Positions 31,393-55,113 of a stretch of DNA of 64,000 nucleotides are shown here, in pieces. The DNA is taken from positions 1,426,001 to 1,490,000 of the forward strand of contig OZ017769.1 of the NCBI GenBank assembly GCA_963969345.1, written 5' to 3'. This DNA is from Turbatrix aceti (Eukaryota; Nematoda; Chromadorea; Rhabditida; Panagrolaimidae). Within the stretch, counting starts at the first letter, position 1; each line of letters begins with the position of its first letter. The notes beneath the pieces are model-generated. The model worked only from the letters and a program-made list of their open reading frames with translations, was not told the origin of the DNA and did not search any database. Both the position numbers and the translations under genes were made by a program.

Positions 31393-32560
31393 TTAGCCTT
31401 TCGTCTTAGACCTCTTGCTTGCCTTAGACATAGTTGTGCTGGCCTTGGTGGTACTGGCCTTGGTGGTGCTGGCCTTGGTGGTACTGGCCTTGGTGGTGCT
31501 AGCTTTGGTCTTGGAAGCCTTGGTCCCCTGGGTCGTCTGGGAAGTTTTGGTCTGAGTATCACTCTCAGTTCCGCCTTTCTTCTGTTTCTTTGATCCAGTC
31601 GTAGTATTACCAGTCGTAGTCGAAAGCCCATTCGCACTAAGGGCTTTCTTGGAGCAGGTTACGTAGTACAACACACCGAAGATCACCACCAAGATAACGA
31701 GCGCTCCAATTACTGCGAGCATGACGTACAAGGCTAAAAAAGAATTTTAGATGTTTTTTTTTTATTTAGGTTGAACTTACTTTCATTCTGTTTTATACTT
31801 GCTTGTATTGCAATACGTCGTTCTTTAATGATAGCAGCACCTTTTGCTGGATCTCCAAATTTCGCTAATAATTCAGCTCTAATTCGTTTACACTGCTCTT
31901 TTGCTTTATTTTTTTTGATTCTGCACGGAAAGATCCAGGCATCCATGTCCTGTTCGCTGACATCAGAAACTGGTTCCGCTTTAAGGTCATCATCGTCGAT
32001 TTCACCCTGAAATCGTTAATGTGCTGTTCGCGAACTACTAGGAATATATGACACTCACTATTTCGGGTTGAATCTCACAGACGATGAATCTGAGCTTGTT
32101 CACTGCAAACAAAGTTGTACAATCCCATGAACTCCTAAATAGGACTCACCGAAAACGCCCTTGGCTCTGATTCGTTGATTCGATGCTACGCTGCCCGGTA
32201 CCGCAGCATTGCAACGTTCAGCGAGGGTAGTCGACGAATCGAAGTCGTTGCGTACCTTGACGAAGCACCGACCCGATTTCGAAAAAGCATCGAGAGCCTT
32301 CTGAAGTCCATGAGAATAGACTTTCGTCGGGCATCTTCTCGTGTCGCCAAGTGACGACACCAATCCGATGAAGAAGCTGATAGCCGCAGCAAGTGCCAGA
32401 AAGTTTGTCGCTTTCATGACAACGAGCCGGACGTCAAGCAGAAGGTTGTAGTGAGCGGAAGTTTGTATCTCCTGCTTACTAGGTTACAGATATGCAAATT
32501 GCTACATGCAATACAAATTTGATAAAAATCCCACGTCCAGCATCGGCAGGAATGAATCAC
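31230..32560. repeat. Tandem duplicated unit carrying 6C-TM gene 1
   Basis: Matches about 36457-37800 in direct orientation with an offset near 5.26 kb. It includes the whole gene plus about 160 bp of 3' flank and 140 bp of 5' flank, with very few substitutions except in the tail repeat, which differs in length. Confidence 0.85.
31393..32417 (-). CDS. 6C-TM family gene 1: secreted-type ectodomain, one TM, basic repeat tail
   Basis: Four exons (32417-32150, 32102-32059, 32006-31781, 31733-31393; phases 1,0,1) give 292 residues. Residues 1-23 are a signal peptide. Conserved cysteines appear as RCPTKV, GRCFVKV, ERCNAAV, FIVCEIQP and PCRIKKNKAKEQC. A helix-prone charged stretch (CKRIRAELLAKFGDP) leads to the membrane segment at about 181-205 (MLAVIGALVILVVIFGVLYY). 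The cytoplasmic tail is Lys/Thr-rich with a five-residue KASTT repeat from a 15 bp minisatellite. I do not recognise the family. The layout suggests a receptor or adhesion protein, but no known domain is visible. Confidence 0.8.
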
Positions 32561-33652
32561 ACAGGCTCGACCAAATGCGGGGATGCACATCAAAACCGCG
32601 GGGATGCTTTTTTTGTGTTTTTGAACGAAAAGCGCGGGAATGCGAATGCTTGCCAAGTTCAAAAACATTGCTGTATTCGATGCCATTTTTTTAAATAAAA
32701 AATCGCAACTCGTTCAATAATTGATTTCATCAAAATTATCAAAATGAAAGGAGGTGTGGTAGAAAAATCACTGCGTGCGAATAAAACGAGCTGGAAACAA
32801 AATTGAACCCCAACAAAATTTTCTAACTTATTTTTTACAAAAAAGTATACCATGTCAACTGAGAAATGTCGAAAAAAATGTTTCCAAAAAAAATTCTAAG
32901 AAAAATTAGGTTTTCGGAACTTTTTAGAACTTCAATCAAAAAACAGTACGTCATTGGATTTTGCGTTCATTTCCAACCGATGCCGAATTTGCTAGATGGT
33001 TTATTTTGTGTTAGCACAATACTACTGGGTCTAGGTCTAGAGCAAAATTTATGGCATCGCGTTTAAGAAAAAAAATTTCATCAGTTTTGGACCTGCGGCG
33101 CGCTTCCTCAGTTTACGACATCTTTGAAGCCGAACTTTTTTGTTTTCATCAGTCAACTGCTGAACTTTTTGGCATTTGTAGGCCTTTGATCCCATCACGT
33201 TATGGACTATTTGCCGTGCTGACCGCTCGCTGATACGTTTTTTTTTATCGCAAAAAAATAGTTCCGATCTTGATTTTATTTTTTTGGGTTTTATTGGTAA
33301 TTAGGATAATACAGGGTGCGCCAAATGTTCTTGAACACACGTTTTTAATTTTAACGCCTCTTGCCTGCTAATCACAAACTCTAACGCACGCTTCGGAAGC
33401 TAACATAAAATTCTACCTGCGACATTATTTAATCGAGAAATATGTCTTCTTGTAAAAAAAAATTGATTGAAAACAAATTTAAAAAAAATGGATTTTTGTA
33501 CGTATGCGTGCATTGAATTTTGTACTACTTCCATACGATCAAATATGAATTTATAAACATTATGGGTGTATTATGCGCTGTTCACACCATTTGTCTGTCT
33601 GTCTTAAAAAAATTTAGTTAGCAAGCAAAAGCTGCGCAGAGAGGCCGTAAAA
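32561..33652. other. Intergenic
   Basis: No gene or clear repeat seen between gene 1's 5' flank and the start of IR2. Confidence 0.45.
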
Positions 33653-34301
33653 ATACAAGCAGGGATGGTATAACGTTTGAATATTGACCACATTACGGTA
33701 AACGAACTGTGTGTTTGAATTTTTGGCGGGAAAAATACTTCTCGGCACAGTAACGCGCTGGCATAGCAGCATTCGGCAAGCGCGTCGCGAATCGACTCCT
33801 CGGTTCGCACATTCCTGAAGAGGGGCAACAGGTTTGAATGTTGACCTCATTACGGTAAACGAACTGTGTGTTCAAATTTTTGGCGGGAAAAATACTTCTC
33901 GGCACAGTAACGCGTTGGCATAGAGCATTCGGTGCGTCGTCAAATCGTTGTCAGTTGAATAGCAGTTCATCCGACCGCATGAACCATATGACTGGGAGCA
34001 AGCTGAAGAAGAGGCCACAGATGCCGCGGCAGAACCGACCACCAATGGCATCACCAAGGGTAAAAAAAAATGACTGACTCGAACGACAATCAAATCGATC
34101 CGGGCACGACTAAACGAGCTAAAACCACTGCAAATGGCACCAAACTGGCATAAAAGCAGTCTGAGAAAATAGCCAACAATCTGGCTGGAATTTTGATTGC
34201 TAATAAAATTCAAAATGAATTTTTTTAATTTTTTTTAAATCTCGCAGAAACGCAATGAAAAAAAATTTACCAATTTTTGACGCAAGTAAAATCAAGTTTT
34301 T

Positions 34302-34329
34302 ACCCAAGTAGAATTAATTCTACTTGGGT
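34302..34329. repeat. 28 bp perfect palindrome
   Basis: Two head-to-head copies of ACCCAAGTAGAATT. Also present in the other IR2 arm (about 45613-45640). Confidence 0.7.
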
Positions 34330-35752
34330 CAAACTTGGTTTACCCGGATAACGCTTTTACCGCGCTTTTCGAGTTGCCCGTCCCTTCATTTTACCTAGGT
34401 ATACCACATTTTCTCACTTTTCACATTTTTATTGTCCAAATTCGCAAAAAAAAACAAATAACAAAAAAATCAAAACATACATTTATCAATGATGAAAAAA
34501 ATGATCCGCTGATATCGCATGGTATTCTTCCGCGGTTTTGTTGCTTCTGTGTGCTTCTTCTGATGAACTTCTAGTGATTGCACGGTGTTCACGCCGGACG
34601 TCTTGATTGCAGCTTCGGAAGAAGTTTCATCGCTTGAAGATGATCATGTCGTCGCCGTCAACGTCGATTTCACCGCTGCCTCTCGCTTGCTGATGAAGTC
34701 GTCCTCATGAAGCCGATTGGGCCTAAAAATCAAGAAAGTTTGCTCGGTTTTCAATTTTTTCCAAAAACTTACATTTTGCATGCAGGCAAGGATGTCTGAA
34801 GGCTGTAGCAAAATATCTCGGCTCTATTTTCAAAAAAAATTTGTGACATCTTCATTTATTTGGAACAAGGTATTGCATTTTGTTTCTCGGCACGGACACA
34901 CACAGCGATCGCATTCAGTGGCACACGAAAAATGTGTCGTTTTCCATTGTCATTCACCACACTTTATGGTGCGTCCTAGCTAGGCAACATTCATACCTAA
35001 ACGAGCAAAGCTTACAATGAGAGGAGGGTGCAATGCATGCAAACGACTTTGTGTCCTTTTTTACGGAATAAGCGATGTGATTCCAGGCGTTTGGTGGACA
35101 CGCTGTTGTGTGCGCAAGTTTTTGTACAAACAACGGCGGTTTGTGGCACGAAGTTGTGTCGCGAAAACGATTTGCTTAGGACACAGGTGCGTCTGCTCCT
35201 GCGCAAGCTTAATGGAGACGCACACCTTATTGTGCTGCGATCGCTCTCACCGTCTGTGCCAAAGAAACAAAATGCAATACCTTGATTTGAAAGCAATCGT
35301 AAATTCAAAGCGACATTTGTGCCGTGCTCTGGCCAATAAGAGGGACGGAATGCCATGATTGGAACGTTCACCTGAAAAAGCGCATTGCGCGGCATTTATT
35401 ATTTTATGTCCGTCGCGTTCATTTTCCCAGCCCCTATCCCTGTATCGGCAATAGTGCGAGCAAATTCGACAAGCGGATAGTGTGAATCTAATGGCGCTGC
35501 CCTAGTTTATCGTTACCGATTCGCTTTTCGTTGTCCTTTTTCCTCTAACCGGCCACAGCACAGCACGAATGTTGTTTTGAACTTCCGATTGCTTCCAACA
35601 TTTTTGTACTTTTTCTCAACAAACATGAATTTTTTTAGAGGGACTTGCACAAATTATGAGCGCGTTTAAAGAAGGTGAAGAAGAGCACAACTTTTTTGAA
35701 AATAAAGCCGAGATACAATTCAGGTTTTATGTTTTATTTCATGCTTAATTTT

Positions 35753-35947
35753 CAGGGTTTTTTACGAATTTGACTTTTTGTATCACTCGCTCCGCTCCCG
35801 CTTTTTTATTTTTAAAATTTTCTCGCTCGCTCTGCTCCCTCTCTTTTACTGTTTAAATTTTCTCGCTCGCTCCGCTCCCGCTCCTTATTTCTTCTGTCCC
35901 CCTCAAGAGCGGAGGGGGAGCGGAGCGAAGAGCGGTCGAAAACCCTG
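35753..35947. mobile_element. Miniature hAT-type element, CGCTC family
   Basis: A 195 bp insertion with termini CAGGGTTTTT and (reverse) CAGGGTTTTC, flanked by the exact 8 bp duplication TTAATTTT (35745-35752 and 35948-35955). The other arm of IR2 has a single TTAATTTT at the corresponding place (44172-44179), an empty site proving insertion after the arms duplicated. The interior is made of CTCGCTCCGCTCCCGC words on one side and GAGCGGAGCGAAGAGCGG on the other. No coding capacity. Confidence 0.88.
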
Positions 35948-35975
35948 TTAATTTTCGTGTTGACAGCTTTTGAGC

Positions 35976-36621: not shown

Positions 36622-37675
36622 TTAGCCTTTCGTCTTAGACCTCTTGCTGGCCTTAGACATGGTGGTGCTGGCCTTGGTGGTGCTGGCCTTGGTATTGCTG
36701 GCCTTAGTGCTAGCTTTGGTGGCCTGGGTCGCTTGGGTTCCTTGGGTCTTGGAACCCTTGGTCCCCATGGTCGTCTGGGAAGTCTTGGTGTGAGTATCAC
36801 TAGTCTCAGTTCCGTCAGCGGCCGTTTTAGAAGTCTTCTGTTTCTTTGATTTAGTCGTTGTATTACCTCCAGTCGTAGTCGTAAGCCCATTCGCACGAAG
36901 AGCTTTCTTGGAGCAGGTTATGTAGTACAACACACCGAAGATCACCACCATGATAACGAGCGTTCCAATTATTGCGAGCATGACGTACAAGGCTAAAAAA
37001 GAATTTTAGATGTTTTTTTTTATTTAGGTTGAACTTACTTTCATTCTGTTTTATACTTGCTTGTATTGCAATACGTCGTTCTCTAATCATAGCAGCACCC
37101 TTTACTGGATCTCCAAATTTTGCTAATAATTCAGCTCGATGTCGTCTACACTGCTCTTTTGGTCTATTTTTTTTGATTCTGCACGGAAAGATCCAGCCAT
37201 CCATGTCCTGTTCGCTGACATCAGAAACTGGTTCCGCTTTAAGGTCATCATCGTCGATTTCACCCTGAAATCGTTAATGTGCTGTTCGCGAACTACTAGG
37301 AATATATGACACTCACTATTTCGGGTTGAATCTCACAGACGATGAATCTGAGCTTGTTCACTGCAAACAAAGTTGTACAATCCCATGAACTCCTAAATAG
37401 GACTCACCGAAAACGCCCTTGGCTCTGATTCGTTGATTCGATGCTACGCTGCCCGGTACCGCAGCATTGCAACGTTCAGCGAGGGTAGTCGACGTATCGA
37501 AGTCGTTGCGTACCTTGACGAAGCACCGACCCGATTTCGAAAAAGCATCGAGAGCCTTCTGAAGTCCATGAGAATAGACTTTCGTCGGGCATCTTCTCGT
37601 GTCGCCAAGTGACGACACCAATCCGATGAAGAAGCTGATAGCCGCAGCAAGTGCCAGAAAGTTTGTCGCTTTCAT
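36622..37675 (-). CDS. 6C-TM family gene 2 (recent tandem copy of gene 1)
   Basis: Exons 37675-37408, 37360-37317, 37264-37039 and 36992-36622 give 302 residues. The first three exons are nearly identical to gene 1, including all six cysteines. The tail has diverged by repeat change: it reads TKASNTKASTTKASTTMSK preceded by SKTQGTQATQATKAST, ten residues longer than in gene 1. The pair shows the tail changing while the ectodomain stays fixed. Membrane segment at about 181-205 (MLAIIGTLVIMVVIFGVLYY). Function unknown. Confidence 0.8.
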
Positions 37676-38864
37676 GACAACGAGCCGGACGTCAAGCAGA
37701 AGGTTGTAGTGAGCAGAAGTTTGTAGTGAGCAGAGGTTACAGATATGCAAATTGCTACATGCAATACAAATTTCATAAAAATCCCACGTCCTGCGTCGGA
37801 AGGAATGAATCATGTGCTTGTCCAAACAAAAAACCGCTGATATTTAGCATCAACTTCCCGCATTCGCATGTGATTCATAACGAAAACACAACGGAATTGG
37901 AAGGCTTTGCACGCTAGTGTGTTTTATTGTGTTGCGCTCATTCTGATGCAGTTTATTGTGTTCCGCAGATCTAACTTAGTCATTGTTTTTTGCTAAAATT
38001 TGATTACAGGTAATGGGAAAAATGGCTTCGATTGTGATTCTCTTGCGAGTGCGGGTTACAGTTCGGTTGTAGGTCGTCGATTAGGATTTTTTGCACCTTA
38101 AAAATTCTCTTCCAGAGTTCCCAAATGCCATTGTGCTACTATGACAATTGATACTAAGTAGATTCGTTGACCTACGAAGTTCGCGTCGACATCCATCGAC
38201 CGAGGTCCCAAGGAATCGCATTATGATATTGTATGTAGTGTGTTGTTAATCATTGAGAATGACAGTAAATAAATAAATAAATGAATAAAAGATTCGTTAA
38301 CGTAGATTCGGGACTCGCTAAACTTGGTTTTCAATCAGCCGAAAACCAGACCGAAGCGACGAGAGTAAAAAGAAATCGCGATCAAATCGAATCGAGACAT
38401 TAACGCCTACGTGGACATCATTTGTGCCTCCTAACATTTGGTCTAATGATAACTAATCACTGAGAAACGGTGAAATAAATAAATTGTGTCCCCGATTTTG
38501 CGATGACTTAATTTCTCGACAAATTTTTCTCTTCTTATACGTGCATCCGTCACAACTTTCGTACGTCTGGTCTTCGCTAGTCCCCTCCCCTCCCCTCCTT
38601 TCAGCGCGCGTTGCTTGGTGAATTTTATAATATAAATTACACCTATCTAAAGTTAAAGGAAACGTTAGTACCAGTGCCATAATAACAGTATTGTACACTT
38701 ATTAATCTATACACGGCACATATCACTGTCAGTGTTAAGCATAAAAATTTCTCTTTGCATGCCAATCTGTTTTTATATATTCAGTAGTATCACACTATTT
38801 ACGCACTCAAAAACACACTCTAGTACATTATAAAGAAACAAAACAAATCAGTCGCATCCTTGTC
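37676..38864. other. Intergenic between 6C-TM genes 2 and 3
   Basis: No gene found. A short (AAAT)n run is at about 38268-38287. Confidence 0.5.
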
Positions 38865-39974
38865 TCAATGCCTCTTTCTTCTCTTCTTTGATGACGAATA
38901 AGAAGACCTGCGTGACTTCTTCGAGACAGTTGATAGAGTACTTTTCTTTGAATACAGAGACATGGTCCTGGTTTTTGACTTAGTATCATCTTCGTCGGCA
39001 TCATTGCGAAGTTTTTTCAGAAGCTTGCGTTTCTTTTTCTTTTTCCTCTTTGCTTCCTCAACCGTAGCTGTGCCATCGGCATTGGTCGTGCCATCGGTAT
39101 TAGTCGTGTCATCACCGGCGGGCGTAGCTGCACCCTCCTTTCGACGACGCTTTTTTCCACTCTTATTCTTCGATAAAAAGATGCCGAAGAATACAATCAA
39201 TATCAGAATTATGGCAACAATGCTGCCGACGATTGCGAAGATGCCAATCATCGCTGAAACATAAATATATATTATGATTGTTTTCGATAGGGGGAGGAGG
39301 CAAACTTACTATCATTTCCACTGTTCATTTGGGCTAGCAGAGTATCTCGTCGTCGTTTTAGTAACCTCTTAGCTTGTTCTTTGCCTCCCAGTTTATTTGT
39401 TAGACCTAATCGAATGTTTTTACACTCCGCTGCTGATTTATGATACTTGAATGGCTTAATGCATGCTTTCATATATGCATCCATTTCATCCGTATGAATA
39501 GTAGTTTTATGTTTTGTGTCAACTGGAACGACGCCAAGGTTGTCGTCAGAATTTTCAGTCTGAAACGGTTAATGCACGGTTGGTAAACATATTACTAAAG
39601 GTAAATGCCATTTACCTTTACCGGTTGAATCTCACAGACGATGTAGTTGACTTTATTGACTGTAAAACGAAAGTGCCATAACCCAATTTACCTCAACTTT
39701 TTATCTTACCGAAATTGCCCTGAGCATCGATCTGTTGATCCGTTACAACACTACCGGGCACAGCTGCGCTACAGCGTTCATTTGGCGTTGTCGACGGGGC
39801 GTTGTCGTTGAGTACCATTACGAAGCACCGATTTGAAATTGCAAATACATCAAGGTTATTCTGAAGTCCAAACGAATAGACCGTCCTTGGGCATCTTACG
39901 TCGTTCAGTGACGAAACCAATCCAGCCAACAGGCTGACTGTTACAGCCAGTGTCTGAAAGTATGTCGCATTCAT
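38865..39974 (-). CDS. 6C-TM family gene 3
   Basis: Exons 39974-39710, 39659-39616, 39559-39310 and 39253-38865 give 315 residues, with the same phases (1,0,1) and same 44 bp second exon as genes 1 and 2. The signal peptide is MNATYFQTLAVTVSLLAGLVSS. Cysteines: VRCPRTV, NRCFVMV, ERCSAAV, YIVCEIQP, and CIKPFKYHKSAAEC. Membrane segment about 188-212 (IFAIVGSIVAIILILIVFFGIF). The tail is extremely basic (KRKKKKKRKLLKKLR) with a TNTDGTTNADGTA repeat and ends in a Ser/Lys/Arg cluster. It is the diverged third member of subfamily I. Function unknown. Confidence 0.78.
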
Positions 39975-40220
39975 GGTAACGAGCAGAACGCGAATGCACA
40001 ACTCAAAACGTATCTTTAGCAGACTTACTTACATGCATGCAAATTAATATTTGCAATATGCATAACTTGTACTAAAATTAGTCTATTGTGGGAACTGCGT
40101 AGACGTCACATCGTCGGCAGGAAGGATCAGGTGTTGGGAAATTTTTACTTTCTCCGGACAAGGAAACGCGGATTCAGGTAGATCCGACATCCCAATTCTC
40201 AGTGCAAAAAGTTTGTTGCA

Positions 40221-41637
40221 ATGAATGCGGTGATCTTTTTGGCATGGGCTGTCATCGTAAGCCTTTGCTTACAGCCGGTAGCGTCGAGTGGTAGCAGAGG
40301 ATGTCCGGCAACGTTTTACTCCACCGATCTGGGCTTGGACCTGGCTGTGTTCTCGTTGTCATCTGAGACGCGGCTGGTCGAGGAATACGGCGAACGGTGC
40401 TACGCCATGGTTCCAAACGATAGAAAGAAGCCCAATCTCGCCCGCTCATGCAAAACCGCTGTCGAAGGAAGCGAGCCGGGCCGTCTCGGTACGCCCGAGC
40501 TCCAACACCTCTTTGGTGAGTTTTGAAATCCAAAAGGGCGTAGATGAACTGATTGGCTGTTTTTCAGTCAAATCGCTGCTTCGAGAGGAAAATATAGAAT
40601 CCGCTTCCGGTGTGGTTCTCGTGTTTGGAGAAGAGAACAACGCTGGTGGCGCCTCGCCCAGGATTCTGACGCTGGGTAAGTGACCCTTACAGGTGACGGC
40701 AGGTGATAGGTAACTTCCCTGTTTCAGCCTTGGGTGAGGGTGGTGCTTCTCAATTCTCATTTCTGCCGGTCAAGGAAGCAATCGAGAAGGCAAGCTACGT
40801 CGTGTGCGAGGCCACACCTGACCAGGTTAGCAAAACTTGATGATGATTTTGGATCTTTTTATTTTTGCAGCTCAACTCTCAAACTTTGAAACCAGAATTA
40901 GTCGACGATGCTGCAGTGCAGGGAGGTAATATGCTGCTTAACTATCTCAAGATATGCGTTCCGATTAAGCAGTTTCCATCCAAATGTGACCAAATGCGTA
41001 GTGCGTTGATAGAAAGATATGGCAAAAAAAGTATTGATGAAAAAGTTGAAAGGAGAAAAAAACAAATTTTGACTAAAGAAAAGGAGGAGAAGGACTCTAA
41101 TGTACGTCGAACTAGTAAGTAGAACAGGTAAAAAATATTTGTACCTGTATCCATCCCGTTTCAGATTTGATAATTTTCTTTATTGTCTGCGGAGCTGCTG
41201 GCGGACTTATTTTGGCATTTGCTCTCTTCTTCCTGGGTTACCGCTTCAAGTATAGAAGCAAGTTGTTCCCGAACTTAAACCCTACGCATGTTCATCGGTC
41301 AAAAAAGAAAAAACGCAGGTCGGTCAAAAAATCCCGTAAACATCGAGACAAAAACGTAAATCAAGAAGAGCCGCAGCCTGAGGATAAAACATCCACGTCA
41401 AAATCGAAGAAAAGCACTAATTCAATCAAATCTAGCATGTCAAAAAAAGAGGAATCGGTAATGTCAAAGAAAGGTGATCCGGTAATGTCAAAGAAAGATG
41501 ATCCGGTTATGTCAAAAAAAGATGATCCGGTTATGTCAAAGAAAGATGATCCGGCAATGTCAAAGAAAGATGACCCGGTAATTTCAAAGAAAGATGATTT
41601 GGTAATGTCAAAGAATACAACAAGAAACGACATCTAA
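40221..41637 (+). CDS. 6C-TM family gene 4 (SKKDDPVM-repeat tail)
   Basis: Exons 40221-40515, 40568-40675, 40728-40825, 40871-41114 and 41165-41637 (phases 1,1,0,1) give 405 residues. The signal peptide ends near VASS. Cysteines: RGCPATF, ERCYAMV, RSCKTAV, YVVCEATP and CVPIKQFPSKC. Exon 2 (EENIESASGVVLVFGEENN) is a symmetric phase 1-1 exon missing from subfamily I. Membrane segment about 249-273 (IIFFIVCGAAGGLILAFALFFLGY). The tail is Lys/Arg-rich, then carries about seven copies of the 8-residue repeat SKKDDPVM, encoded by a 24 bp minisatellite. It is the only plus-strand member, head-on to gene 5. Function unknown. Confidence 0.8.
41440..41620. repeat. 24 bp coding minisatellite in 6C-TM gene 4
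   Basis: Units of ATGTCAAAGAAAGATGATCC-GGTA type, about seven copies, in frame, with few substitutions. Confidence 0.8.
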
Positions 41638-42064: not shown

Positions 42065-43482
42065 TTATTCATCATCATCACCACCACCACCCTTTGTAGT
42101 GGCGTCCTTTCTTTTACTACGCAGATACTTGCGAAGCTTTCTCTTCTTCTTCTTATTCTTCGTAGAATAAAATGACGCTCCTGTTACACCGGTTGCACCG
42201 GTTGCACCGGTTACACCGGTTGCACCGGTTGCACCGGTTGCCCCGGTTGCACCGGTCATTGTCGGTGCCATCGTTGTAGAGGCGTTGGTCATTCCAGTGG
42301 CACTCGTAGTAGCACTCGTAGTGGAACTACCCTTAGCACGCTTAGAGCTCTTACTCTTAGAGTGCCTAGACTTAGTGTTCTTAGTACGGCGGTGGCGGCG
42401 GGTTGCGGTAAATCGGCGTTCCTTGCAGGACAACCGGAAGTTTAAGCAAACGTAGACTATAACAAAAAAGAAAATGACTGCCGCAGCAGCTCCACTAACG
42501 GCAAAGATCGTAATTAGCACTAGAAATTTTAGTTCAAAATATAACTGTAAAATTTTGAAAGTCAGACTTACACTTTTTATGCTTGTCGTCATCTCTATCC
42601 TTTGCTTCTTTTTTTAACACCATGCTTCTTCTTTGAGCGATAGCTTTATCAAGATCAGCCTTGTCGAACAGGGAATTCAAATCGCTCAACAGACCCGGAC
42701 AACCCTTTCTCAGTACTTTTGCTGCTCTTGGCCTTGGTTTCGGAACACAATATACTAGATAACGGGTGAGCCTTTTTCTCTTATTTCCACCTTGAACCAA
42801 TTCTGGTTGCAGAGTATCGACGTCAATCTACAAAATTAAAAACATTTGAAGGCTTAAAAGCGTCGTAGATTGCTCACCTGGTCAGGCGTGGCCTCGCACA
42901 CGACGTAGCTTGCCTTCTCGATTGCTTCCTTGACCGGCAGAAATGAGAATTGAGAAGCACCACCCTCACCCAAGGCTGAAACAGGGAAGTTACCTATCAC
43001 CTGCCGTCACCTGTAAGGGTCACTTACCCAGCGTCAGAATCCTGGGCGAGGCGCCACCAGCGTTGTTCTCTTCTCCAAACACGAGAACCACACCGGAAGC
43101 GGATTCTATATTTTCCTCTCGAAGCAGCGATTTGACTGAAAAACAGCCAAACAGTTCATCTACGCCCTTTTGGATTTCAAAACTCACCAAAGAGGTGTTG
43201 GAGCTCGGGCGTACCGAGACGGCCCGGCTCGCTTCCTTCGACAGCGGTTTTGCATGAGCGGGCGAGATTGGGCTTCTTTCTGTCGTTTGGAACCATGGCG
43301 TAGCACCGTTCGCCGTATTCCTCGACCAGCTGCGTTTCAGATGACAACGAGAACACAGCCAGGTCCAAGCCCAGATCGGTGGAGTAAAACGTTGCCGGAC
43401 ATCCTCTGCTACCACTCGACGCTACCGGCTGTAAGCAAAGGCTTACGATGAAAGCCCATGCAAAAAAGATCGAAGCCTTCAT
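42065..43482 (-). CDS. 6C-TM family gene 5 (collagen-like GATGATG tail)
   Basis: Exons 43482-43188, 43135-43028, 42975-42878, 42827-42572 and 42519-42065 (phases 1,1,0,1) give 403 residues. Exons 1-3 are almost identical to gene 4 in inverted orientation (coordinates sum to 83703), but exons 4 and 5 are unrelated in sequence apart from the C-x-C pair (CVPKPRPRAAKVLRKGC) and the membrane segment (about 254-278, ITIFAVSGAAAAVIFFFVIVYVC). The tail carries a GAT/GVT three-residue repeat from a 9 bp minisatellite (about 42180-42260), then KKKKRKLRKYLRSKRK and an acidic GGGGDDDE end. The 5' part is thus homogenised while the 3' part is swapped. Confidence 0.8.
42178..42262. repeat. 9 bp coding minisatellite in 6C-TM gene 5
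   Basis: CACCGGTTG units, about nine in tandem, in frame (Gly-Ala-Thr / Gly-Val-Thr on the minus strand). Confidence 0.8.
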
Positions 43483-44149
43483 GGCAGCAAACTACACGAA
43501 CTGAAAATTGAGTAGTCAATTTGACACAAAAAGAATTATGCTGATTTTTGCGGAAAGCGTGCTAATTTAGGTCTTTTGGACTATTTGAATGCATAATTCC
43601 CATCAGAGCAAAAATGTGATAAAAACCGGTTTCCCTCGATAGTGCTGGCAAGTTGCTGCTGCAACTGTTCAACCCAGTCAGTCGAAAACATTTTTTTAAT
43701 CGTGGCCAAAAAACGGTGATCTAGTATAGGCGGTAGCATTTATCTGCCTGATTCATGAAAAAATCTACATGAAAAAATCGACGAGCTTCAAAATTGAAGA
43801 CTTTGAATTACTTTTTTTTTTGCAAATCCAAAGCTCAAAGGCTCTTAGAGCATCCAAGCGGCACACAAATACTTGCGAGCAACCTTTTTTCTTGAAGTTC
43901 TGCGGAACCTTTTACGGAACCTTTTTATGCCCAAGGTTTCTGCTCCTGCTCCGTTGTTTGTGATGTTTATCCATACGTGGAGTGGTAGCCAAAAGTTTGA
44001 TTTTGCTATGAAAAGTTTATACTGAAAATTTCAGTTGCACCGCTTATGATCTTACAAAGTTACGGTAGTCAGAAATCACGTTTTTGCCATTTCTGACGAT
44101 TTTTGGCACATTCTAGCTGACGAAAAACGTTATTTTCGAAATCAATGTG
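43483..44149. other. Intergenic between gene 5 and IR2 right arm
   Basis: The first 80 bp match the 5' flank of gene 6. The rest shows no recognisable feature. Confidence 0.45.
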
Positions 44150-46312
44150 GCGATCAAAAGCTATCAACACGAAAATTAAGCATGAAATAAAATAAAAACC
44201 TGTATTGTATTGTAGCAAAATATCTCGGCTTTATTTTCAAAAAAGTTGTGCCCTTCTTCATCTTCATTAAACGCGCTCATAATAAATTGGGCAAGTCCCT
44301 CTAAAAAAATTCATGTCTGTTGAGAAAAAGTACAAAAATGTTGGAAGCAATCGGAACTTCAAAACAACATTCGTGCTGTGCTGTGGCCGGTTAGAGGAAA
44401 AAGGACAACGAAAAGCGAATCGGTAACGATAAACTAGGGCAGCGCCATTAGATTCACACTATCCGCTTGTCGAATTTGCTCGCACTATTGCCGATACAGG
44501 GATAGGGGCTGGGAAAATGAACGCGACGGACATAAAATAATAAATGCCGCGCAATGCGCTTTTTCAGGTGAACGTTCCAATCATGGCATTCCGTCCCTCT
44601 TATTGGCCAGAGCACGGCACAAATGTCGCTTTGAATTTACGATTGCTTTCAAATCAAGGTATTGCATTTTGTTTCTTTGGCACAGACGGTGAGAGCGATC
44701 GCAGCACAACAAGGTGTGCGTCTCCATTAATCTTGCGCAGGAGCAGACGCACCTGTGTCCTAAGCAAATCGTTTTCGCGACACAACTTCGTGCCACAAAC
44801 CGCCGTTGTTTGTACAAAAACATGCGCACACAACAGTGTGTCCACCAAACGCCTGGAATCACATCGCTTATTCAGTAAAAAAGGACACAAAGTCGTTTGC
44901 ATGCATTGCACCCTCCTCTCATTGTAAGCTTTGCTCGTTTAGGTATGAATGTTGCCTAGCTAGGACGCACCATAAAGTGTGGTGAATGACAATGGAAAAC
45001 GACACATTTTTCGTGTGCCACTGAATGCGATCGCTGTGTGTGTCCGTGCCGAGAAACAAAATGCAATACCTTGTTCCAAATAAATGAAGATGTCACAAAT
45101 TTTTTTTGAAAATAGAGCCGAGATATTTTGCTACAGCCTTCAGACATCCTTGCCTGCATGCAAAATGTAAGTTTTTGGAAAAAATTGAAAACCGAGCTAA
45201 CTTTCTTGATTTTTAGGCCCAATCGGCTTCACGAGGACGACTTCATCAGCAAGCGAGAGGCAGCGGTGAAATCGACGTTGACGGCGACGACATGATCATC
45301 TTCAAGCGATGAAACTTCTTCCGAAGCTGCAATCAAGACGTCCGGCGTGAACACCGTGCAATCACTAGAAGTTCATCAGAAGAAGCACACAGAAGCAACA
45401 AAACCGCGGAAGAATACCATGCGATATCAGCGGATCATTTTTTTCATCATTGATAATTGTATGTTTTGATTTTTTTGTTATTTGTGTTTTTTTTGCGAAT
45501 TTGGACAATAAAAATGTGAAAAGTGAGAAAATGTGGTATACCTAGGTAAAATGAAGGGACGGGCAACGCGAAAAGCGCGGTAAAAGCGTTACCCGGGTAA
45601 ACCAAGTTTGACCCAAGTAGAATTAATTCTACTTGGGTAAAAACTTGATTTTACTTGCGTCAAAAATTGGTAAATTTTTTTTCATTGCGTTTCTGCGAGA
45701 TTTAAAAAAAATTAAAAAAATTCATTATGAATTTTATTAGCAATCAAAATTCCAGCCAGATTGTTAGCTATTTTCTCAGACTGCTTTGAAGCCAGTTTGG
45801 TGCCATTTGCAGTGGTTTTAGCTCGTTTAGTCGTGCCCGGATCGATTTGATTGTCGTTCGAGTCAGTCATTTTTTTTTACCCTTGGTGATGCCATTGGTG
45901 GTCGGTTCTGCCGCGGCCTCTGTGGCCTCTTCTTCAGCTTGCTCCCAGTCATATGGTTCATGCGGTCGGATGAACTGCTATTCAACTGACAACGATTTGA
46001 CGACGCACCGAATGCTCTATGCCAACGCGTTACTGTGCCGAGAAGTATTTTTCCCGCCAAAAATTCAAACACACAGTTCGTTTACCGTAATGAGGTCAAC
46101 ATTCAAACCTGTTGCCACTCTTCAGGAATGTGCGAACCGATGAGTCGATTCGCGACGCGCTTGCCGAATGCAGCTATGCCAATGTTTTACTGTGCCGAGA
46201 AGTATTTTTCCCGCCAAAAATTTAAACACACAGCTCGTTTATCGTATTGAATTCAACAGTAAATTTTTCCCGCCAAAAAATTATGATCATCATGTATACG
46301 ATCCCTGCTTGT
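44150..46312. repeat. Right arm of inverted repeat IR2
   Basis: Reverse complement of 33653-35975 minus the inserted element. It contains the second 28 bp palindrome and the tandem GGCGGGAAAAATA blocks. Part of it (about 44916-45190) recurs directly downstream at 46778-47125. Confidence 0.8.
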
Positions 46313-46410
46313 ATCCCAATTAATTTTACAAGTTGCGCGTTCTGCGACTTTTCCGTTGTTGAGCAGTCTCAACACGAATGTTGCGTCGCAGCGCACGGCT
46401 TACTCTCATT

Positions 46411-47125: not shown

Positions 47126-47438
47126 AAAATTGAAAACCGAGCTAATTTTTCATCAGAAGTTTCTTGATGTAATTTCTAAATGTATTCTTCCGTTGCGCCT
47201 TGCCGCAAGTTCCGGACACTATCGAATGGTGAACCTTAGTTGCTTTTTTTTCACAAAAACATTTGGAATGCATTTTTTCAAACAAAGTTACAGTATATTT
47301 TTATACAAACGAGGACTTATTCATCAGCGAACAAAACATATATATAGTTGTTAAAAAATCAATCGCTGCCCAGTATTATATCAGCTACGCCTTAGTCTTC
47401 ATCAGAACCATCCTTTCCTCGACGACGCCGAAGCCTGC

Positions 47439-48765
47439 TTATCCTCTCGTTTTCTTTGAAACTGTGGATGACGTTCTGGTTGTTGAACTAGTCCTTGTCG
47501 TTGCTCCCGTTGCCGACGTGGTCGCATCGGTGGCGGTGGTACCAGTAGCGGTGGTACCAGTAGCAGTGGTACCAGAAGTGGTACCAGTAGCGGTGGTACC
47601 AGAAGTGGTACCAGTAGCGGTGGTACCAGTAGCGGTGGTACCAGTAGCGGTGGTACCAGTAGTGGTACCACCGCGGCGGCGGCGGCGACGGCGTTTTGAA
47701 ACTTTCCAAATGTAGTAGCCAAGAGCCATAACAACTGTTACTCCAATCAATCCACAACCTCCGATTACAGTAAGTACAACTACAAAGGATGAATGAAGAT
47801 TCCGGTGTAAAAGTACTAAGGCTATACTTACCTATTAGTTGATTTTTATCACTTTTATCTTTTGCTTCCTTTGCAGCGAGTTCATTTCTTTTAGCGGCAA
47901 TTGCGTTCTCGAGCTCAGCGGGTTGGTAAATGGATTTCAGCTCAAAGAGCAGATCCCTACAAGTACTTTCTTTTTTATTTGGCGTAAGACAAGTAGTGAA
48001 ATAGGAATTGAGCTTATCCTTCTTATCAACCAGTTCGGGTTTTAGAGTATCAATCTACAATATTAAATGGATGTTTGAAAAAATGAAAATTAATAAAGCG
48101 GGCAAACATTCGTTTTCGTTTGCAAGCAAAAAAACGGTTGTTTGCACACAGATTCTCACCTGGAACGGCGTAACTTCGCACACGACGTAGCTTGCCTTCT
48201 CGATTGCTTCCTTGACCGGCAGAAATGAGAATTGAGAAGCACCCCCCTCACCCAAGGCTGAAACAGGGGAAGTTACCTATCACCTGCCGTCACCTGTAAG
48301 GGTCACTTACCCAGCGTCAGAATCCTGGGCGAGGCGCCACCAGCGTTGTTCTCTTCTCCAAACACGAGAACCACACCGGAAGCGGATTCTATATTTTCCT
48401 CTCGAAGCAGCGATTTGACTGAAAAACAGCCAAACAGTTCCTCTACGCCCTTTTGGATTTCAAAACTCACCAAAGAGGTGTTGGAGCTCGGGCGTACCGA
48501 GACGGCCCGGCTCGCTTCCTTCGACAGCGGTTTTGCATGAGCGGGCGAGATTGGGCTTCTTTCTGACGTTTGGAACCATGGCGTAGCACCGTTCGCCGTA
48601 TTCCTCGACCAGCCGCGTCTCAGATGACAACGGGAACACAGCCAGGTCCAAGCCGAGATTGGTGGAGTAGAACGTTGCCGGACATCCTCTGCCACCACGC
48701 GACTCTACCGGCTGCAAGCAAAAGCTTACGATGACAGCCGAAGCCAAAAAGATCGTTGCCTTCAT
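47439..48765 (-). CDS. 6C-TM family gene 6 (TTGTTATG-repeat tail)
   Basis: Exons 48765-48471, 48418-48311, 48257-48160, 48054-47832 and 47779-47439 (phases 1,1,0,1) give 354 residues. Exons 1-3 are a direct near-copy of gene 5 (offset 5283 bp). Exons 4-5 are different: CLTPNKKESTC pair, membrane segment about 243-265 (VIGGCGLIGVTVVMALGYYIW), a KRRRRRRR stop-transfer cluster, then a GTTAT/GTTSGTTAT repeat from a 15 bp GGTACCAGTAGCGGT minisatellite and a Ser/Thr/Arg end. Together with genes 4 and 5 it shows a constant ectodomain attached to three unrelated tails. Function unknown. Confidence 0.8.
47525..47675. repeat. 15 bp coding minisatellite in 6C-TM gene 6
   Basis: Tandem GGTACCAGTAGCGGT units with AGAAGT variants, in frame on the minus strand. 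Confidence 0.8.
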
Positions 48766-49945
48766 GGCAGCAAACTTCATCAACTGAAAATTGAGTAGGC
48801 TGTTTGACACGATAAGAATTATGTTAATTTTTGGAGGGAAACATTTTTGTTCTATTCACTTTTTAGCAGTTCATTCCATAGCGAAAACTGCTATGGAATG
48901 AACTTTGTTACGTGTCAACTTTGATATTTTTTGCATCCAAACAAAGGTCAAGAGGCAGTCCATGACAGGATTTCGGACCGAGGACAAGGTTTTTTTACAC
49001 TTTCAAATGTTTTACGCCAGAATTGTTTTCCACCCCTTGGAAGGTCTAAAACCGCGATACACAGATTTAAAAAAATCGAAATCTGTAGTTTTGGCTTCCA
49101 GAAGGTTTTGATACAAGTTGATGCCATGCGTTGCGTTGCGTTCATGAGGAAATCAGATTTTTTTTATCCTTACAGTGAGTGCCATTTTTGAGTCATTTTG
49201 TTTTTTTGGCTACCATAGATTTGTTTTTTTGTTGGGGAAATTATAGTATAGCCTATCTTTTTCCTCGTGTTTTGGCGCGTCGAATAAAAAAACACAAAAT
49301 TTTCGGAATCGGGCTTCATTGCCATCCGCGGGCTTTTATGGTGCGCACTCGAGAAAATGCGCACAAAAAACCGCTTTTTCGCTGCGAGTGACAAAAAAAC
49401 TGCGTGCGCGCACGTATAAGGAGTCATGTTCAAAAAACGGCCCTGAAGCAAATTTGTGTTTTTTATGCTTGCGGTCACCTGAATATGATTGGTCATGTCC
49501 TGAAGATTGTAATAAGTTCCTTGCGCGTTTGATCCGACAATTTTGCACATTGCCACAGGCATTTGAAAAAAATGAAAAAAATAAAAAAACCACACCAAAA
49601 ACGATCTATTTGTTAACTATGATTAACATTGCAACCTAACTTTCACATTTTAAAAGCAAGATTTGAAGCCCCAGCGGCAAACTTCAAAAAAATAACCACA
49701 TCTTTTTACTTTTCTTAAATTTTTCGGAAGTTTGCCGGGGAATTTGGCGGAGAATTTGGCAGAAGTTGGGGGAATCCCCGGGGATTTCCGGGAATATTCC
49801 CCGGGGAATCTCCCGGGGAATCCCATCTTCGCAACCCTGCTTCTGGTCCCCTACAACCCCGCATTTGATGTTGTATCCTAAATCGGCTCACAGAGTGTAA
49901 AAAACAGTTTATTTATTGCCTAATATTCAATTCAAATTATCAGTC
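48766..49945. other. Intergenic between 6C-TM genes 7 and 6
   Basis: No gene seen. A CATTCCATAGC..GCTATGGAATG hairpin lies near 48874-48900, and a solo hAT-type end near 49735-49855. Confidence 0.5.
49735..49855. mobile_element. Solo end of a hAT-type element, CCCCGGGGA family
   Basis: Read on the minus strand it starts CAGGGTTGCGAAGATGGGAT and continues with palindromic TTCCCCGGGG words, parallel to the element at 46411. The other terminus and target duplication were not found. Confidence 0.5.
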
Positions 49946-51888
49946 TTATGGAGCGGTCTTAAATAGCGACGTATTAGGCATTTGTTCCTTCCGGAGTAGT
50001 TCAAACGCGGTTAGTTGTTTTGCAGGATCTTCTTCGGTTTTTTTGGGTGAAAGCAGGCTCATGTCTTTCTTGCTCGGGTCGACTTTTATGGGTGAAAGCA
50101 GGCTCATGTCTTTCTTGCTCGAGTCGATTTTTATGGATGAACGCGTGCTGATCTCTTTCTTGCTCTTCCTCGACTTTTTCTTCTTCCTCTTCCTATCCTC
50201 CTCGCCATCGTCGTCGGCGTCGTCTTCAGCCTTGCGTTTCCTTCTCTTGCGTCTTTTTTTCTTCTTTTTTGATCTGGTTTCCGTGACCTCAGATTCTTCT
50301 TCTTCCTTAATCTTTTGCACTTTTCGGAAGAGGTTTATGCACGTTTTCTTCTTGGAGATAAACACTAACGCACAAATGCCGAGCAAGATCATTACGATTA
50401 CGCAAACGAGGATTATGACCGTGTTCATGAAATCTGTAAAACAAAAAAATGTTGGGTTGTAAAAAAAATTATCACATACTAGATTCTTTGGCTTTCAAAC
50501 TCTCTTCATATTCCTTTAATTTTTTGCATTGCTTTACCCTTATTTTATCGTTTGGATAAAGGCAGGGATCTTCAATCACTTTTTCATTTGTTTCGATCTT
50601 GGGTGTCGGTGGGGGGGTTTCAGTAGTGGCTTCATCTTGACCTTGATTTTGATCTTGATCTTGATTTTGATTTTGATTTTGATCTTGATCTTGACTTTTA
50701 TCTTTATCTTGATCTTGATCTTGACTTTTATCTTGATTTTGATCTTGATTTTGATCCTGATCTTTGTCTTTATTTTCATCGTCGTCGGCAGCCGGGATCG
50801 CGTAGAGGCGTGCTTCGGCATCAATTAAAGATGGGCGGTCCTTGGCAAACGAGGCGAAAGTATTCAGCTAAAGTTACATAGATTAAAAAAAAAATGTGAT
50901 GTCGACACAAATTTTTTTCCATTCAGTTTTTTTAGAAACAGAGTTGGAAAAAGTTGGTTTTAAAAAAAACTAGATTATTAAGTTTGAATTTTTTTACCAT
51001 GGTGCAAAAACTGCAAATTTGGTTCTATGTAAAATTGAAATCTTGAAGAGAACCAAAATCAAGCGTCGATCGTTTTTTAAAACGTTAAGCCAAAAATTAT
51101 CGATTGAATTTCAAAACAAGTGCCAAAAACGTCAATTTTTGAAAATTTTTTAAAAACTAATTATAGATTTTCGATACTAGTTTAAATCAAACATTTTTTT
51201 TGTTTTATTTCGTGTAAAAAAAGTTTGAAAAAAATGTATTTTGTTGAAATGAAATTCTTTTACAAACTTACACTGTCCGTAGTACCTTCGCATAGCAGGT
51301 AGTCAATGTCGTGCCTCACATCGTTAAATTTGACTATTTGGATTCGTTCTTTCGATGCTGTTCTTTCTGAAAAAAAATTGTTTAACCAAAATTTTAAAAT
51401 TGTAAATAAAACATACGCAGGACAACAACTTTATCCGGTTGTACAGGTTGTATAGCAATGTACCGTTTACCTGCACCTGGACTTGGCAGAACGGATTGGT
51501 CAAAATCGTGAACTAAAACGGAAGATTCATTTCATGAGGAAAATTAGTAAAAAATGAAATAAAAATTGAAATTGAAGTCAAACTTACTTCCGGACTCGTC
51601 AATGTGCTCTTCGCCGTTTCTGTACGGAAACAGTCGCTTATCTACGTTGAGAGCGTTGTTGCACGTAAGCTTTACGTTACGTGGGGATGTTATCTCCATA
51701 CTTGGATTGAAGGGAAGCCAAATGACGCATCGATTGTTGTAACTGTCGTCCATAACGTGTAGAACATCAACATTCGTTGGCGTTGGTACGCGAATTGTCG
51801 ACGGGCATCGAGGGTTGCCGTGGCCATCTGCTCCTGCAAGCACGACGGCAAGTATCACGGCGGATGCTACTAACACAGTCACTTGCAT
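49946..51888 (-). CDS. 6C-TM family gene 7 (Asp/Gln/Asn-repeat ectodomain)
   Basis: Exons 51888-51588, 51512-51417, 51366-51272, 50867-50480 and 50433-49946 (phases 1,1,0,1) give 455 residues. The signal peptide ends near AGADG. Cysteines: PRCPSTI, NRCVIWLP, LTCNNAL, YLLCEGTT, and PCLYPNDKIRVKQC. Between C4 and C5, on the predicted outer side, is a long DQDQNQNQ-type repeat of 6 bp units. Membrane segment about 297-317 (VIILVCVIVMILLGICALVFI). The tail has long Lys/Arg runs, acidic patches, and a duplicated SSKKDMSLLSPIKVDP block of 16 residues. Founder of subfamily III with gene 8. Function unknown. Confidence 0.76.
50634..50780. repeat. 6 bp coding repeat in 6C-TM gene 7
   Basis: TTGATC/TTGATT units, in frame, encode alternating Gln and Asp/Asn with occasional Lys-Ser. 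Confidence 0.8.
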
Positions 51889-53163
51889 TGCAACGACTCA
51901 TGCACTTCGCATTGAATAGATGTGAAGTGTTGGCGCTTAGATTGCAAATTCAAATTTTCTTTGTCTACAATTTATTATGCAAAAAACGTGCGTATACTGT
52001 AGTTCACTCCAGTGTTTCGCTGATTCCGCTTTTGAAAAAAATCAACTCTCAGAATCGATTCTTTGACTCCGAGTCAAAATAGGTTCACAGAAAATGCATC
52101 AGTAAACGCCTAAAAACTGCGTGCTTTCATCTTTAACGACTTTTTATTTTACAAAATCAACAATTTGGCACCAAAAATGGCTATAAAAATCTATTTTTTC
52201 CAAAAAATGAACATGAAATGTGGACTCCGAAGTGTCAAAAAGTCATTTTGTAAAAAACGACTCTCGACTCTGAGTCGGAGTCAGCGGAACACTGGTTGAC
52301 TCTGAGTGAGAACGCAACGAAAAAGTTGTCACATGAAAAAATCACGTATCTGTATTACTGGTCGCAAAAAGTGTATCGTATATAATACACAAATTGTTTT
52401 GACAGTAGACGATGCACTTCTTCAAACAAACGATATGCTTAGTTTTTTTTACGTTTATAAAGTGCGTTCAGAAAGGATAGCCTCACCCCTAAAATCAGGA
52501 TTTTTGGTAAAACGGTTAAAGTTACGGTGACGGGAGTAGGCTTAATCGATTTGTCGTAAAAAGTTACACTAGAACGTTATGTTCCGATGTCCATCCTCGA
52601 ACAAGTACGGCCTGCAAAAAATAAAATATATTTTTCGACCGTTCAGAAAGGATAGCCTCACTTTTGATTTTAATAGGGTTGACTCATTTTTAGTGCGTAG
52701 AAACGCCGCAAAGCGTGTTTAAATAAACAAGTAGGTTGATTTCAATTTAATAAGCTTCTAAAGAGACGATTCGCAATGAACTGATAAAAATTTTGGCCAT
52801 TTTACTACAAATTAGACCCCCAACATCAATAATGCCGTCCTGATGGTCAGTAACTCCCGCAAATTGACGTCTGTTGGCACAAACGGCTTGCAGGTGATGC
52901 CCCCTCAAGTTTCCAACAAAAGTCACCCTAAACAACCCTGCACTGTTTGATAAGAAAATTATTTATTTAAAATAAGCGATCCAATGTTCAGGTTTCAGAG
53001 TGTTTAGACCTCTTCTTTTGTAGGAAAAATTTTTTTTGATGCGTCAAAGTGTATCATCAAAGCACTTTTAGTATATTCGTTACAAAAAAATGAATCGTAT
53101 GCAACTCATAAAAACCTAACAATTAAAAGCGTCGTAAACATCAAATTTATTTCATTTTTTATT
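51889..53163. other. Intergenic between 6C-TM genes 8 and 7
   Basis: Contains a complete hAT-type element (52010-52294). A repeated phrase, TTCAGAAAGGATAGCCTCAC, occurs at about 52468 and 52642. Otherwise nothing recognisable. Confidence 0.5.
52010..52294. mobile_element. Non-autonomous hAT-type element, GACTC family
   Basis: A 285 bp element whose ends CAGTGTTTCGCTGATTCCG and (reverse) CAGTGTTCCGCTGACTCCG differ at two positions. It is flanked by GTTCACTC and GTTGACTC, an 8 bp duplication with one mismatch. Subterminal GACTCTGAGTC words on both sides. Related fragment at 827-970. Confidence 0.8.
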
Positions 53164-54876
53164 TCACGGAACCATCTGAAAATTCGATTCAGGCTTCTTT
53201 GATGACCCTCCTGGATATTCTGGATTAGTCTTAGCGAAGTACGATTTAATTGTCTGGAAAGACGTTGTAGGCTTTGTATTATTTGGCGTTCCCGTTTGAC
53301 CAAATTGAGATTTAATGGATTTGAATTTTTTCATATCACTCTTAGGAACAAAATCAGACGGACAAGACTGAAAGGGTGGTAGCCCGTCATTCGTGCTTCT
53401 TCTGGACATAGTACTCTTTGTTGAACTTTTGTTTCCACCACGGTTTCGCGTGCTTCTCTTCGACGATTTTGATCCGTCGGTAATAAAGTCCGACCTGATG
53501 GATTTAAATTGTTCTATACTGTTGCCCTTTTTCTTTTCCCTGTCATCCACGGTGAAGCTAAAAGTATGAGGAGTGGTGGTATGGTACTCTTCTTTAGGCT
53601 TCGACGGAGGAAGACCCAGCAATTTTCTGACTTTCTTTTTAAAGATGTATGCGAGGGCTGCAAATATCCCAATCAGCAGAAATATCATGAGGGCCATGAA
53701 GAAGATGACGGCCTTCTTATCTTCTAAAAAAGCACAATAAATTTAGTATGTGTATACGATTATTTAATTTTTGCAGTGAACAGACCATCTGCGTTAGCAT
53801 CCATTTTTTGTTGGTGAGCTTTGTAAGTGTCGCACGCCGGTGAATGCTCATCTATTATACAGGGATTTTTGATCACCGAGATATTGTGGTATATAACATT
53901 AGACTTGTCGACCACCGGCACCGGTTTAATGGGTTCATCTGCATTGTAGAAGGTTAAGAGATTGTCAACTGGAGACAGAGATATCAACTAAAAAAATTTG
54001 AAAAAGAATAGAATTATAATTTTTTTGATCGCGGAAAAATTAAAAATAACAAAAAAATACAATTTTTTGGTTTATAAATATTTGATTTTAAATTTATTTT
54101 TAAATTTAGTTATCGCAACACAATTAAATTTTTTTATGCATCAAAGTTAAAAAAAAGATTAGAAGAAACTTTAAATATAAAAATTAAAATTTTGAGATCC
54201 AAAAAGTGGGTCCGAAATTCATTAAAAAAAGTTTGTGGTTCTGACTGAGATTCTATTTTTAGAAATAAAAAACTTACATCTTTAGGCGACGCTTCGCAAA
54301 ACAGAAAATCAATGTCGTTTTTTGCGTCATCGATTTTTATTGACTCGATTCGTGTTCCTTTTTCGTCTTTTTCTGCAAAAATTTTTTTTTGATTGATCAA
54401 TCATAACAAAACATACTCAGAACTGAGATTTCATCAGTTTTTCCAACTGCTTTGATAGCAATGTACAGATGACCTAAGTTTGGGCCTGGCACACCTTTTT
54501 CTATGAATAGGTCAACTAAAACAAAAAATATATAAAAATTGAAAAAAAATAGTTCAAATTTACCTAGGTATTCCAAATTGAACGGCGCAACCGCTCTGCT
54601 CACGTTGATAGCTTTTTTGCATATACGTTCTAAAGAAAAATTTTCGCCTGTCAGATCTTCTGGATTGAAGGGAAGACAAATGACGCATCGATTGTTGACG
54701 TCACCGTCGTCCAGAATCCAAAGCTGAACAACAGACGTGCCTTTTCCTGACACTGGTATTGGTCTACGAATCGTTGACGGACATCGGGGAGTACCGTTGC
54801 TTTCTGCGCCCGAGATATGCGCCTGTCCGAGGAGAACAAGTGTCACGACAGAGACTGAGAGCAAAGTAGCATGCAT
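53164..54876 (-). CDS. 6C-TM family gene 8
   Basis: Exons 54876-54564, 54515-54417, 54372-54278, 53987-53786 and 53723-53164 give 422 residues with phases 1,1,0,1. I chose the ATG at 54876 because it opens a signal peptide (MHATLLSVSVVTLVLLGQAH). Cysteines: PRCPSTI, NRCVICLP, RICKKAI, FLFCEASP, and PCIIDEHSPAC. Membrane segment about 241-262 (FFMALMIFLLIGIFAALAYIF). The tail is Ser/Lys-rich with three spaced copies of an F-K-S-I-[RK]-S-[DQ]-F-like motif. The donor of intron 4 (GAT G|GTCTGT) is weak; the next upstream-like GT follows an in-frame stop, so either this donor is used or the gene ends early. Function unknown. Confidence 0.7.
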
Positions 54877-55113
54877 TGCTTGCAACAACTGAGTCGCTGT
54901 GTATTACTGCTGAATTTCTCTTTCATGTGTAAGAATTATTCTAATTTTCAGAATTTATTATGCAAATACGCAGACATACAATTTTTTTGAAGTAATAAAA
55001 AATACTATTTAAATTTATGAAAATCGAATGAGATCATGATCAGAAAAAAATTCACACGCAAATGAAAAAAATAGGATCCACAGAGAATCGAGCCCAAAAT
55101 ACCATCAACTCAC

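Follow-up and report, generated by a model that had tools for sequence, protein, structure and literature searches.

What kind of family is encoded by the eight related genes clustered in the window, the 64,000-nucleotide stretch of DNA analyzed here, and why do some of them place nearly the same head on different tails? The sequence-only reading of this locus had proposed an undescribed family of six-cysteine, single-pass membrane proteins with interchangeable repeat tails. All eight genes (g1–g8) could be rebuilt from the DNA, and together they fill exactly positions 31393–54876. Seven genes (g1–g3 and g5–g8) are on the minus strand and g4 is on the plus strand. The short-type genes have four exons: g1 at 31393–32417 (exons 32150–32417, 32059–32102, 31781–32006, and 31393–31733; 292 aa), its near-copy g2 at 36622–37675 (exons 37408–37675, 37317–37360, 37039–37264, and 36622–36992; 302 aa), and g3 at 38865–39974 (exons 39710–39974, 39616–39659, 39310–39559, and 38865–39253; 315 aa). 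The long-type genes have five exons: g4 at 40221–41637 (exons 40221–40515, 40568–40675, 40728–40825, 40871–41114, and 41165–41637; 405 aa), g5 at 42065–43482 (exons 43188–43482, 43028–43135, 42878–42975, 42572–42827, and 42065–42519; 403 aa), g6 at 47439–48765 (exons 48471–48765, 48311–48418, 48160–48257, 47832–48054, and 47439–47779; 354 aa), g7 at 49946–51888 (exons 51588–51888, 51417–51512, 51272–51366, 50480–50867, and 49946–50433; 455 aa), and g8 at 53164–54876 (exons 54564–54876, 54417–54515, 54278–54372, 53786–53987, and 53164–53723; 422 aa). The divergent neighbors g3 and g4 have start codons 246 bp apart. The introns are GT-AG in 29/29 cases; the joins were chosen by hand, so this figure means that consistent models exist and is not proof of their use. 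The intron phases are those described earlier, 1,0,1 in g1–g3 and 1,1,0,1 in g4–g8.

The predicted proteins are built from the same parts in the same order: an N-terminal hydrophobic signal, a four-cysteine head, an acidic linker, a stalk with an extra cysteine pair, a membrane segment, and a low-complexity basic tail. The N terminus is hydrophobic in each of g1–g8, as expected from the proposed signal peptides, and the six ectodomain cysteines occur in a single order in 8/8 window proteins, with one additional cysteine (C67) in g8. Each protein has one strong hydrophobic segment with a Kyte-Doolittle mean of 2.6–3.5 (the next best past residue 26 reaches at most 1.1), which supports the single membrane segment, and the tails carry a net charge of +13 to +24, which supports their description as very basic. 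Tandem-repeat arrays are present in the tail exon of seven genes and absent from g8, so the description of repeat tails holds for 7/8. The g7 protein also has a Q/D repeat within its extracellular stalk. These gene models confirm the observation on g1–g8 as the earlier reading stated it.

Protein searches of the genome (60 Mb in 28 contigs; the window is C5:1426001–1490000) found a second cluster of six tandem genes, h1–h6, at C5:1200490–1210533, ~247 kb off on the same contig. The proposed clustered family is supported and grows to at least 14 genes, arranged in two clusters on this contig; the count is a minimum because the genome search scores best candidates only. The h1–h6 introns are GT-AG in 17/17 cases, as are all 46 introns of the 14 genes. 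The h1 gene has lost the intron within its head (phases 0,1), and h2–h6 have phases 1,0,1. The h6 reading frame has an early stop in the tail in this assembly. Six cysteines, the membrane segment, and the basic tail (net charge +9 to +26) are kept in 14/14 proteins. The C-x-x-A motif, one of the marks listed earlier, is found in 8/8 window genes but in only 1/6 of the added genes, and it is therefore not family-defining. A tree of the heads gave three groups, g7–g8 (support 100/99), g4–g6 (85/76), and the nine short-type genes (83/79). On average, purifying selection acts on the heads, with dN/dS of 0.20–0.56 in six diverged pairs (h3/h5, h5/h6, g1/g3, g1/h6, g3/h5, and g7/g8) and 0.63 in h2/h3; these are pairwise averages and are compatible with selection at single sites. 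The head dN/dS of the six diverged pairs and the recurrence of the intron phases at ~20–45% identity to g1 place the gene models beyond chance. Weaker genome matches were read and rejected as relatives. The open frames at C5:4414669 (E 0.016, 23%), read by eye, did not contain the full architecture; those at C6:4849268 (E 0.14) did not combine signal, cysteines, membrane segment, and basic tail; and none of three places in C1:4880229–4885140 (E 7) united these four features. In the same genome, the Rfam SL1 model had 43 matches, none above the family cut-off, but each of the four SL1 loci that were read contains the spliced leader GGTTTAATTACCCAAGTTTGAG typical of nematodes, which identifies the genome as that of a nematode.

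The claim that the proteins contain no known domain is supported by profile and database searches. No Pfam model reached cut-off with the whole proteins (6 of the 8 window proteins), and there was no convincing family among the ectodomain matches, where the best E-value was 0.12 in Pfam (12 of 14 ectodomains) and 0.056 in NCBIfam (6 ectodomains). Profile searches of 5.8 billion proteins returned zero matches even at E 1 and 10. The protein-database search depends on five-letter words in common and misses distant relatives, and one 5.8-billion-protein search scored the best 8000 candidates ranked by such words. The g1 and g3 proteins, 45% identical, have 6 words in common, g4 and the short type have 0–1, and g8 has 0 in common with g1–g6. 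Because the subfamilies have 0 or 1 common word, the database result means that there is no relative above roughly 40–50% identity by our estimate. The proposed restriction to one lineage is likely, yet it was tested only down to that level. A search with the carrier gene at 29.2–30.3 kb served as a positive control that the protein database contains nematode proteins. This gene is 83% identical to a Panagrellus redivivus gene and 74–79% identical to the top matches from Bursaphelenchus and Steinernema. None of the matches listed came near 100%, so this database apparently lacks the species itself. Restriction to a lineage is in itself a common feature of nematode gene families. Neither this family nor any nematode paired receptor was described among the matches listed in the open-licence literature. 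The family is real and apparently undescribed, and its pattern of evolution is unusual and testable. The best reading of the sequences is a lineage-restricted family of nematode type I membrane proteins with at least 14 members.

The g4, g5, and g6 genes have in common a tract of 618–685 bp, 94–98% identical, that contains the signal peptide, the head, and two introns. It starts 11–68 bp ahead of the start codon and runs through exon 3, except in g4/g6, where it stops after the first 82 bp of that exon. The tract in g4 is at 40210–40833 (plus strand), from 11 bp before the ATG to 8 bp into intron 3, and is 97.8% identical to g5 42870–43493. The tract in g5 (42867–43550, minus strand) is 94.5% identical to g6 48150–48833 (minus strand), of which 48176–48793 is common to g4 at 95.5%. 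Blastn comparison of the three genes with 400-bp flanks detected no match outside the tract, whether in the flanks, stalk, membrane segment, or tail; forced alignment there gave 58–75% identity, and the stalks remain homologous as proteins. Differences in the head span and in the rest of the gene were 11/605 versus 279/690 for g4/g5, 27/605 versus 209/542 for g4/g6, 26/605 versus 223/602 for g5/g6, and 1/359 versus 44/613 for g1/g2 (Fisher p <1e-7 for each). Introns 1 and 2 of g4–g6 are 96–100% identical, and dS is 0.03–0.08 in the heads compared to at least 1.49 or saturation in the stalk and tail. Near-identity of introns and synonymous sites goes beyond what purifying selection would give, and we conclude that the g4–g6 heads were copied recently.

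The second cluster contains the opposite arrangement. The sole blastn match within the h3 and h5 genes is a 131-bp tail tract at 90% identity, with dS of 0.27 in the tail and 0.89 in the heads. The h3 head is near h2 (dS 0.24), the h3 tail is near h5, and h2/h3 identity fades from 5' to 3'. A second h3/h5 match, in the upstream flanks, corresponds to the ends of h2 and h4. The earlier claim of interchangeable tails is thus half right: one clear tail tract is common to h3 and h5, but the strongest signal is the reverse, copied heads joined to differing stalks and tails. These comparisons show, at the level of DNA, that heads and tails evolve partly independently through gene conversion, and the architecture together with its conversion history is very probably as described.

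Does the identity of the heads have functional meaning? The strongest alternative is that it reflects neutral concerted evolution of tandem copies. Gene conversion between paralogous loci has been documented in Caenorhabditis (PMC3966223), the locus studied here is rich in repeats and inverted duplications, and diverging repeat-rich tails alone could block conversion. The h2/h4 pair is homogenized across the whole gene (98.1% over 1223 bp) and not in the head alone. Against this explanation, the g4/g5 and g5/g6 tracts stop where the head meets the stalk, the g4/g6 tract stops close to that border, and the same head bias is present in g1/g2. Neutral conversion is a serious contender that falls somewhat short of even odds.

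Structure prediction gave a small, beta-rich head with one helix (pLDDT only 77) and a stalk modeled as a three-helix bundle, in which two cysteines could staple helices one and two. A rival reading makes the head a degenerate C-type lectin-like domain (PF00059). The CP and RC[FYV] cysteines would form the N-terminal hairpin pair, the ERC cysteine would lie in helix 1, and the YVCE cysteine would lie in the last strand; the long type would retain most of the length and the short type would have lost the middle. Heads and lectins resemble each other in the order of four cysteines, the strand-helix-strand order, the final VCE, and a near-equal first cysteine spacing (16–22 in heads and 17–18 in 13 lectins). 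They differ in that the family heads have a shorter middle, missing as a whole from the short type, and the second spacing does not fit (77–84 in long heads versus 93–112 in lectins). The PF00059 profile did not match in Pfam scans of proteins and ectodomains, and the WIGL/WND core and long-loop cysteine pair were absent on reading the 14 heads. Lectin-domain matches number at least 32 in this genome, and comparison of the 14 proteins with lectins of the same genome gave a best E of 0.39 and an hhalign probability of at most 1.1%. We consider a lectin origin unlikely, and the misfit of the second spacing lowered our estimate.

The promoters point to common regulation. The POU octamer ATTTGCAT is present on the minus strand upstream of g1 (32492–32499), g2 (37745–37752), g3 (40037–40044, between g3 and g4), and g8 (54960–54967), and the octamer core TTTGCAT is upstream of g7 (51977–51983, minus strand). 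The full octamer is therefore found at 4/8 window genes, which account for 4 of the 5 full octamers in the window. The core is present in 10/14 promoters at −62 to −100 (interval tested, −110 to −50 from the start codon) compared to a background of 2.4% of 60-bp intervals, and in 0/8 control promoters from two other repeated families of the window, some of them near-identical copies and one cut at the window end. The g4, g5, g6, and h5 promoters lack it at the usual position; g4 shares the intergenic octamer with g3. The octamer was first spotted by eye. In an unbiased count made afterwards, ATTTGCA was the top of ~8142 7-mers, present in 9/12 non-redundant promoters (p 5.8e-10 before correction); the family promoters are related by descent and hence not wholly independent. 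The g7/g8 and short-type promoters have little else in common besides the octamer. The genome contains five POU-domain loci. In C. elegans, CEH-6 binds the octamer, and genes that carry it are more often expressed in the excretory cell (25/64 versus 193/1885); in one reporter series this expression was lost when the octamer was <392 bp from the start codon, but close octamers in other promoters do work (PMC2841177). A POU-like motif marks secreted proteins in Trichinella (PMC11731790). Control of the family by a POU factor is probable from the promoter sequences, and excretory tissue, proposed by analogy with C. elegans, is a doubtful expression site.

The explanation that best joins these data is the following. 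The head would face outside and bind a ligand or partner, and conversion would keep its specificity common to proteins with differing cytoplasmic tails. The basic Ser/Lys-rich tails would bind acidic partners, either inner-leaflet lipid or the cytoskeleton, and phosphorylation would tune them. A POU factor on the proximal octamer would activate these genes in a single tissue, with the excretory/secretory epithelium as the leading candidate. We give this functional reading as a whole a probability of about 0.4, and the assignment of the proteins as surface receptors or adhesins with a shared head is tentative. A role in recognition, adhesion, or immunity, which the sequence-only reading raised, is a conjecture. 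The ITIM consensus was found in 0/14 tails and two YxxL/I motifs in none; 4/14 tails have a single YxxL/I, located at the membrane or close to it, each tail has 0–4 tyrosines, and 0/14 membrane segments contain a charged residue. The tail motif [ST][MVIL]S[KR], seen 12 times in 11/14 tails versus 1.1 expected from shuffles, was set aside as it had been picked after looking.

The ectodomain could instead be shed by a proprotein convertase cutting at a basic site of the third stalk helix, so that head and stalk would be secreted from a gland or excretory cell. In 11/14 proteins (not g7, g8, or h6), a run of Lys/Arg that includes one or more arginines is found 13–23 residues ahead of the membrane segment, and the same octamer associations, with C. 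elegans excretory-cell genes (PMC2841177) and secreted Trichinella proteins (PMC11731790), would suit secretion. However, the cut site is within a confidently predicted helix, which would be expected to make a poor convertase substrate, and a purely secreted precursor would have no use for the low-complexity basic tail that each member carries, so we view shedding as quite improbable. Fast divergence, clustering, and gene conversion would also suit sperm or egg surface proteins under fast sexual co-evolution, a reading that we judge poor because head dN/dS is below 1 in the pairs compared (averages that are compatible with selection at single sites) and because the octamer is not known as a nematode sperm-promoter element.

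The shared-head surface protein reading can be compared with known systems. The likeness to CEH-6 targets of the C. elegans excretory cell consists of ATTTGCAT upstream of the start codon and the presence of POU genes; examples of such targets include channels and transporters (PMC2841177). Other lineage-restricted tandem families of nematodes resemble it in forming tandem clusters on one chromosome and diverging fast, and differ from it in that the proteins described here have a modular head, stalk, and tail with conversion largely confined to modules. No adaptive immunity is known in nematodes, and few surface recognition systems are. The vertebrate paired receptors (Siglec-11/16, PMC5701461; CEACAM1/3; and CD300A/C) are likewise single-pass surface proteins, in which conversion maintains the similarity of the outer domains and the inner parts differ. 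Their hallmark, a near-identical outer domain maintained by conversion, is found in the g4/g5/g6 heads and more weakly in g1/g2. The family differs in belonging to a nematode, in having no Ig match in Pfam, and in its stalk, which is also outside the membrane and differs along with the tail. The absence of ITIM/ITAM and of charged membrane residues places it outside the paired-receptor class as these features define it. A nematode counterpart of independent origin that uses other signaling, in which one converted disulfide head, perhaps a C-type lectin cut to ~80 residues, would sit on different stalks and tails and turn one ligand into different responses, is a long shot that we offer by analogy. 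Visibly traded heads and tails combined with a candidate promoter switch would allow a direct test of whether, outside vertebrates, gene conversion maintains a single specificity across multiple outputs. Neutral conversion would still leave a protein family that is new to the libraries searched and adds two predicted folds.

The window cluster of six-cysteine membrane protein genes (g1–g8) has a 2-kb inverted pair within it (33694–35715 and 44221–46246), and its two copies are 98% identical and enclose g2–g5. Portions of this pair recur at dozens of sites in the genome, and for this reason it is probably a mobile element. Another inverted repeat in the window (4206–11880) is near-perfect, with arms of 3.7 kb each (4206–7936 and 8149–11880) that are 99.9% identical to each other. 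This repeat is either very recent or an assembly artefact. Both arms carry copies of small secreted-protein genes.

The small genes are present in eight copies in the window (162–527, 1525–1830, 3335–3631, 4976–5317, 7051–7407, 8679–9035, 10769–11110, and 15059–15331). They constitute one or two additional families with the products MQFVAKLFMLLAIASFALVQAQILYNPYGF... and MTAFAKVLFMLL..., which are short peptides with SPSSK, apparently secreted. The POU octamer is absent from the promoters of these eight genes, and several of the promoters have TATA-like boxes.

The Gln-Asp repeat of g7 (50630–50764) is located in the extracellular stalk, whereas the repeat arrays of the other window genes are in the tail. 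The last exon of h6, one of six further family members in tandem elsewhere on the contig, lies in the region L052:9517–9901 and L053:1–233 (local coordinates). It encodes an acidic run followed by an early in-frame stop, and a different frame runs on with tail-like sequence. This arrangement reflects a frameshift, which is either genuine or an assembly error. The long stretch between h3 and h4 (L052:4340–5180) is abundant in CGTCGTGTAGC and TACACGAC words and resembles a satellite or palindromic repeat.

Three SLC25A44-like genes for mitochondrial carriers lie in tandem on the minus strand at 23000–30560; a database comparison covered only the gene at 29.2–30.3 kb. SL RNA-like genes form a tandem array with a period of ~1644 bp on contig C6 (3376694–3418638), and clusters of these genes are also found on C4.
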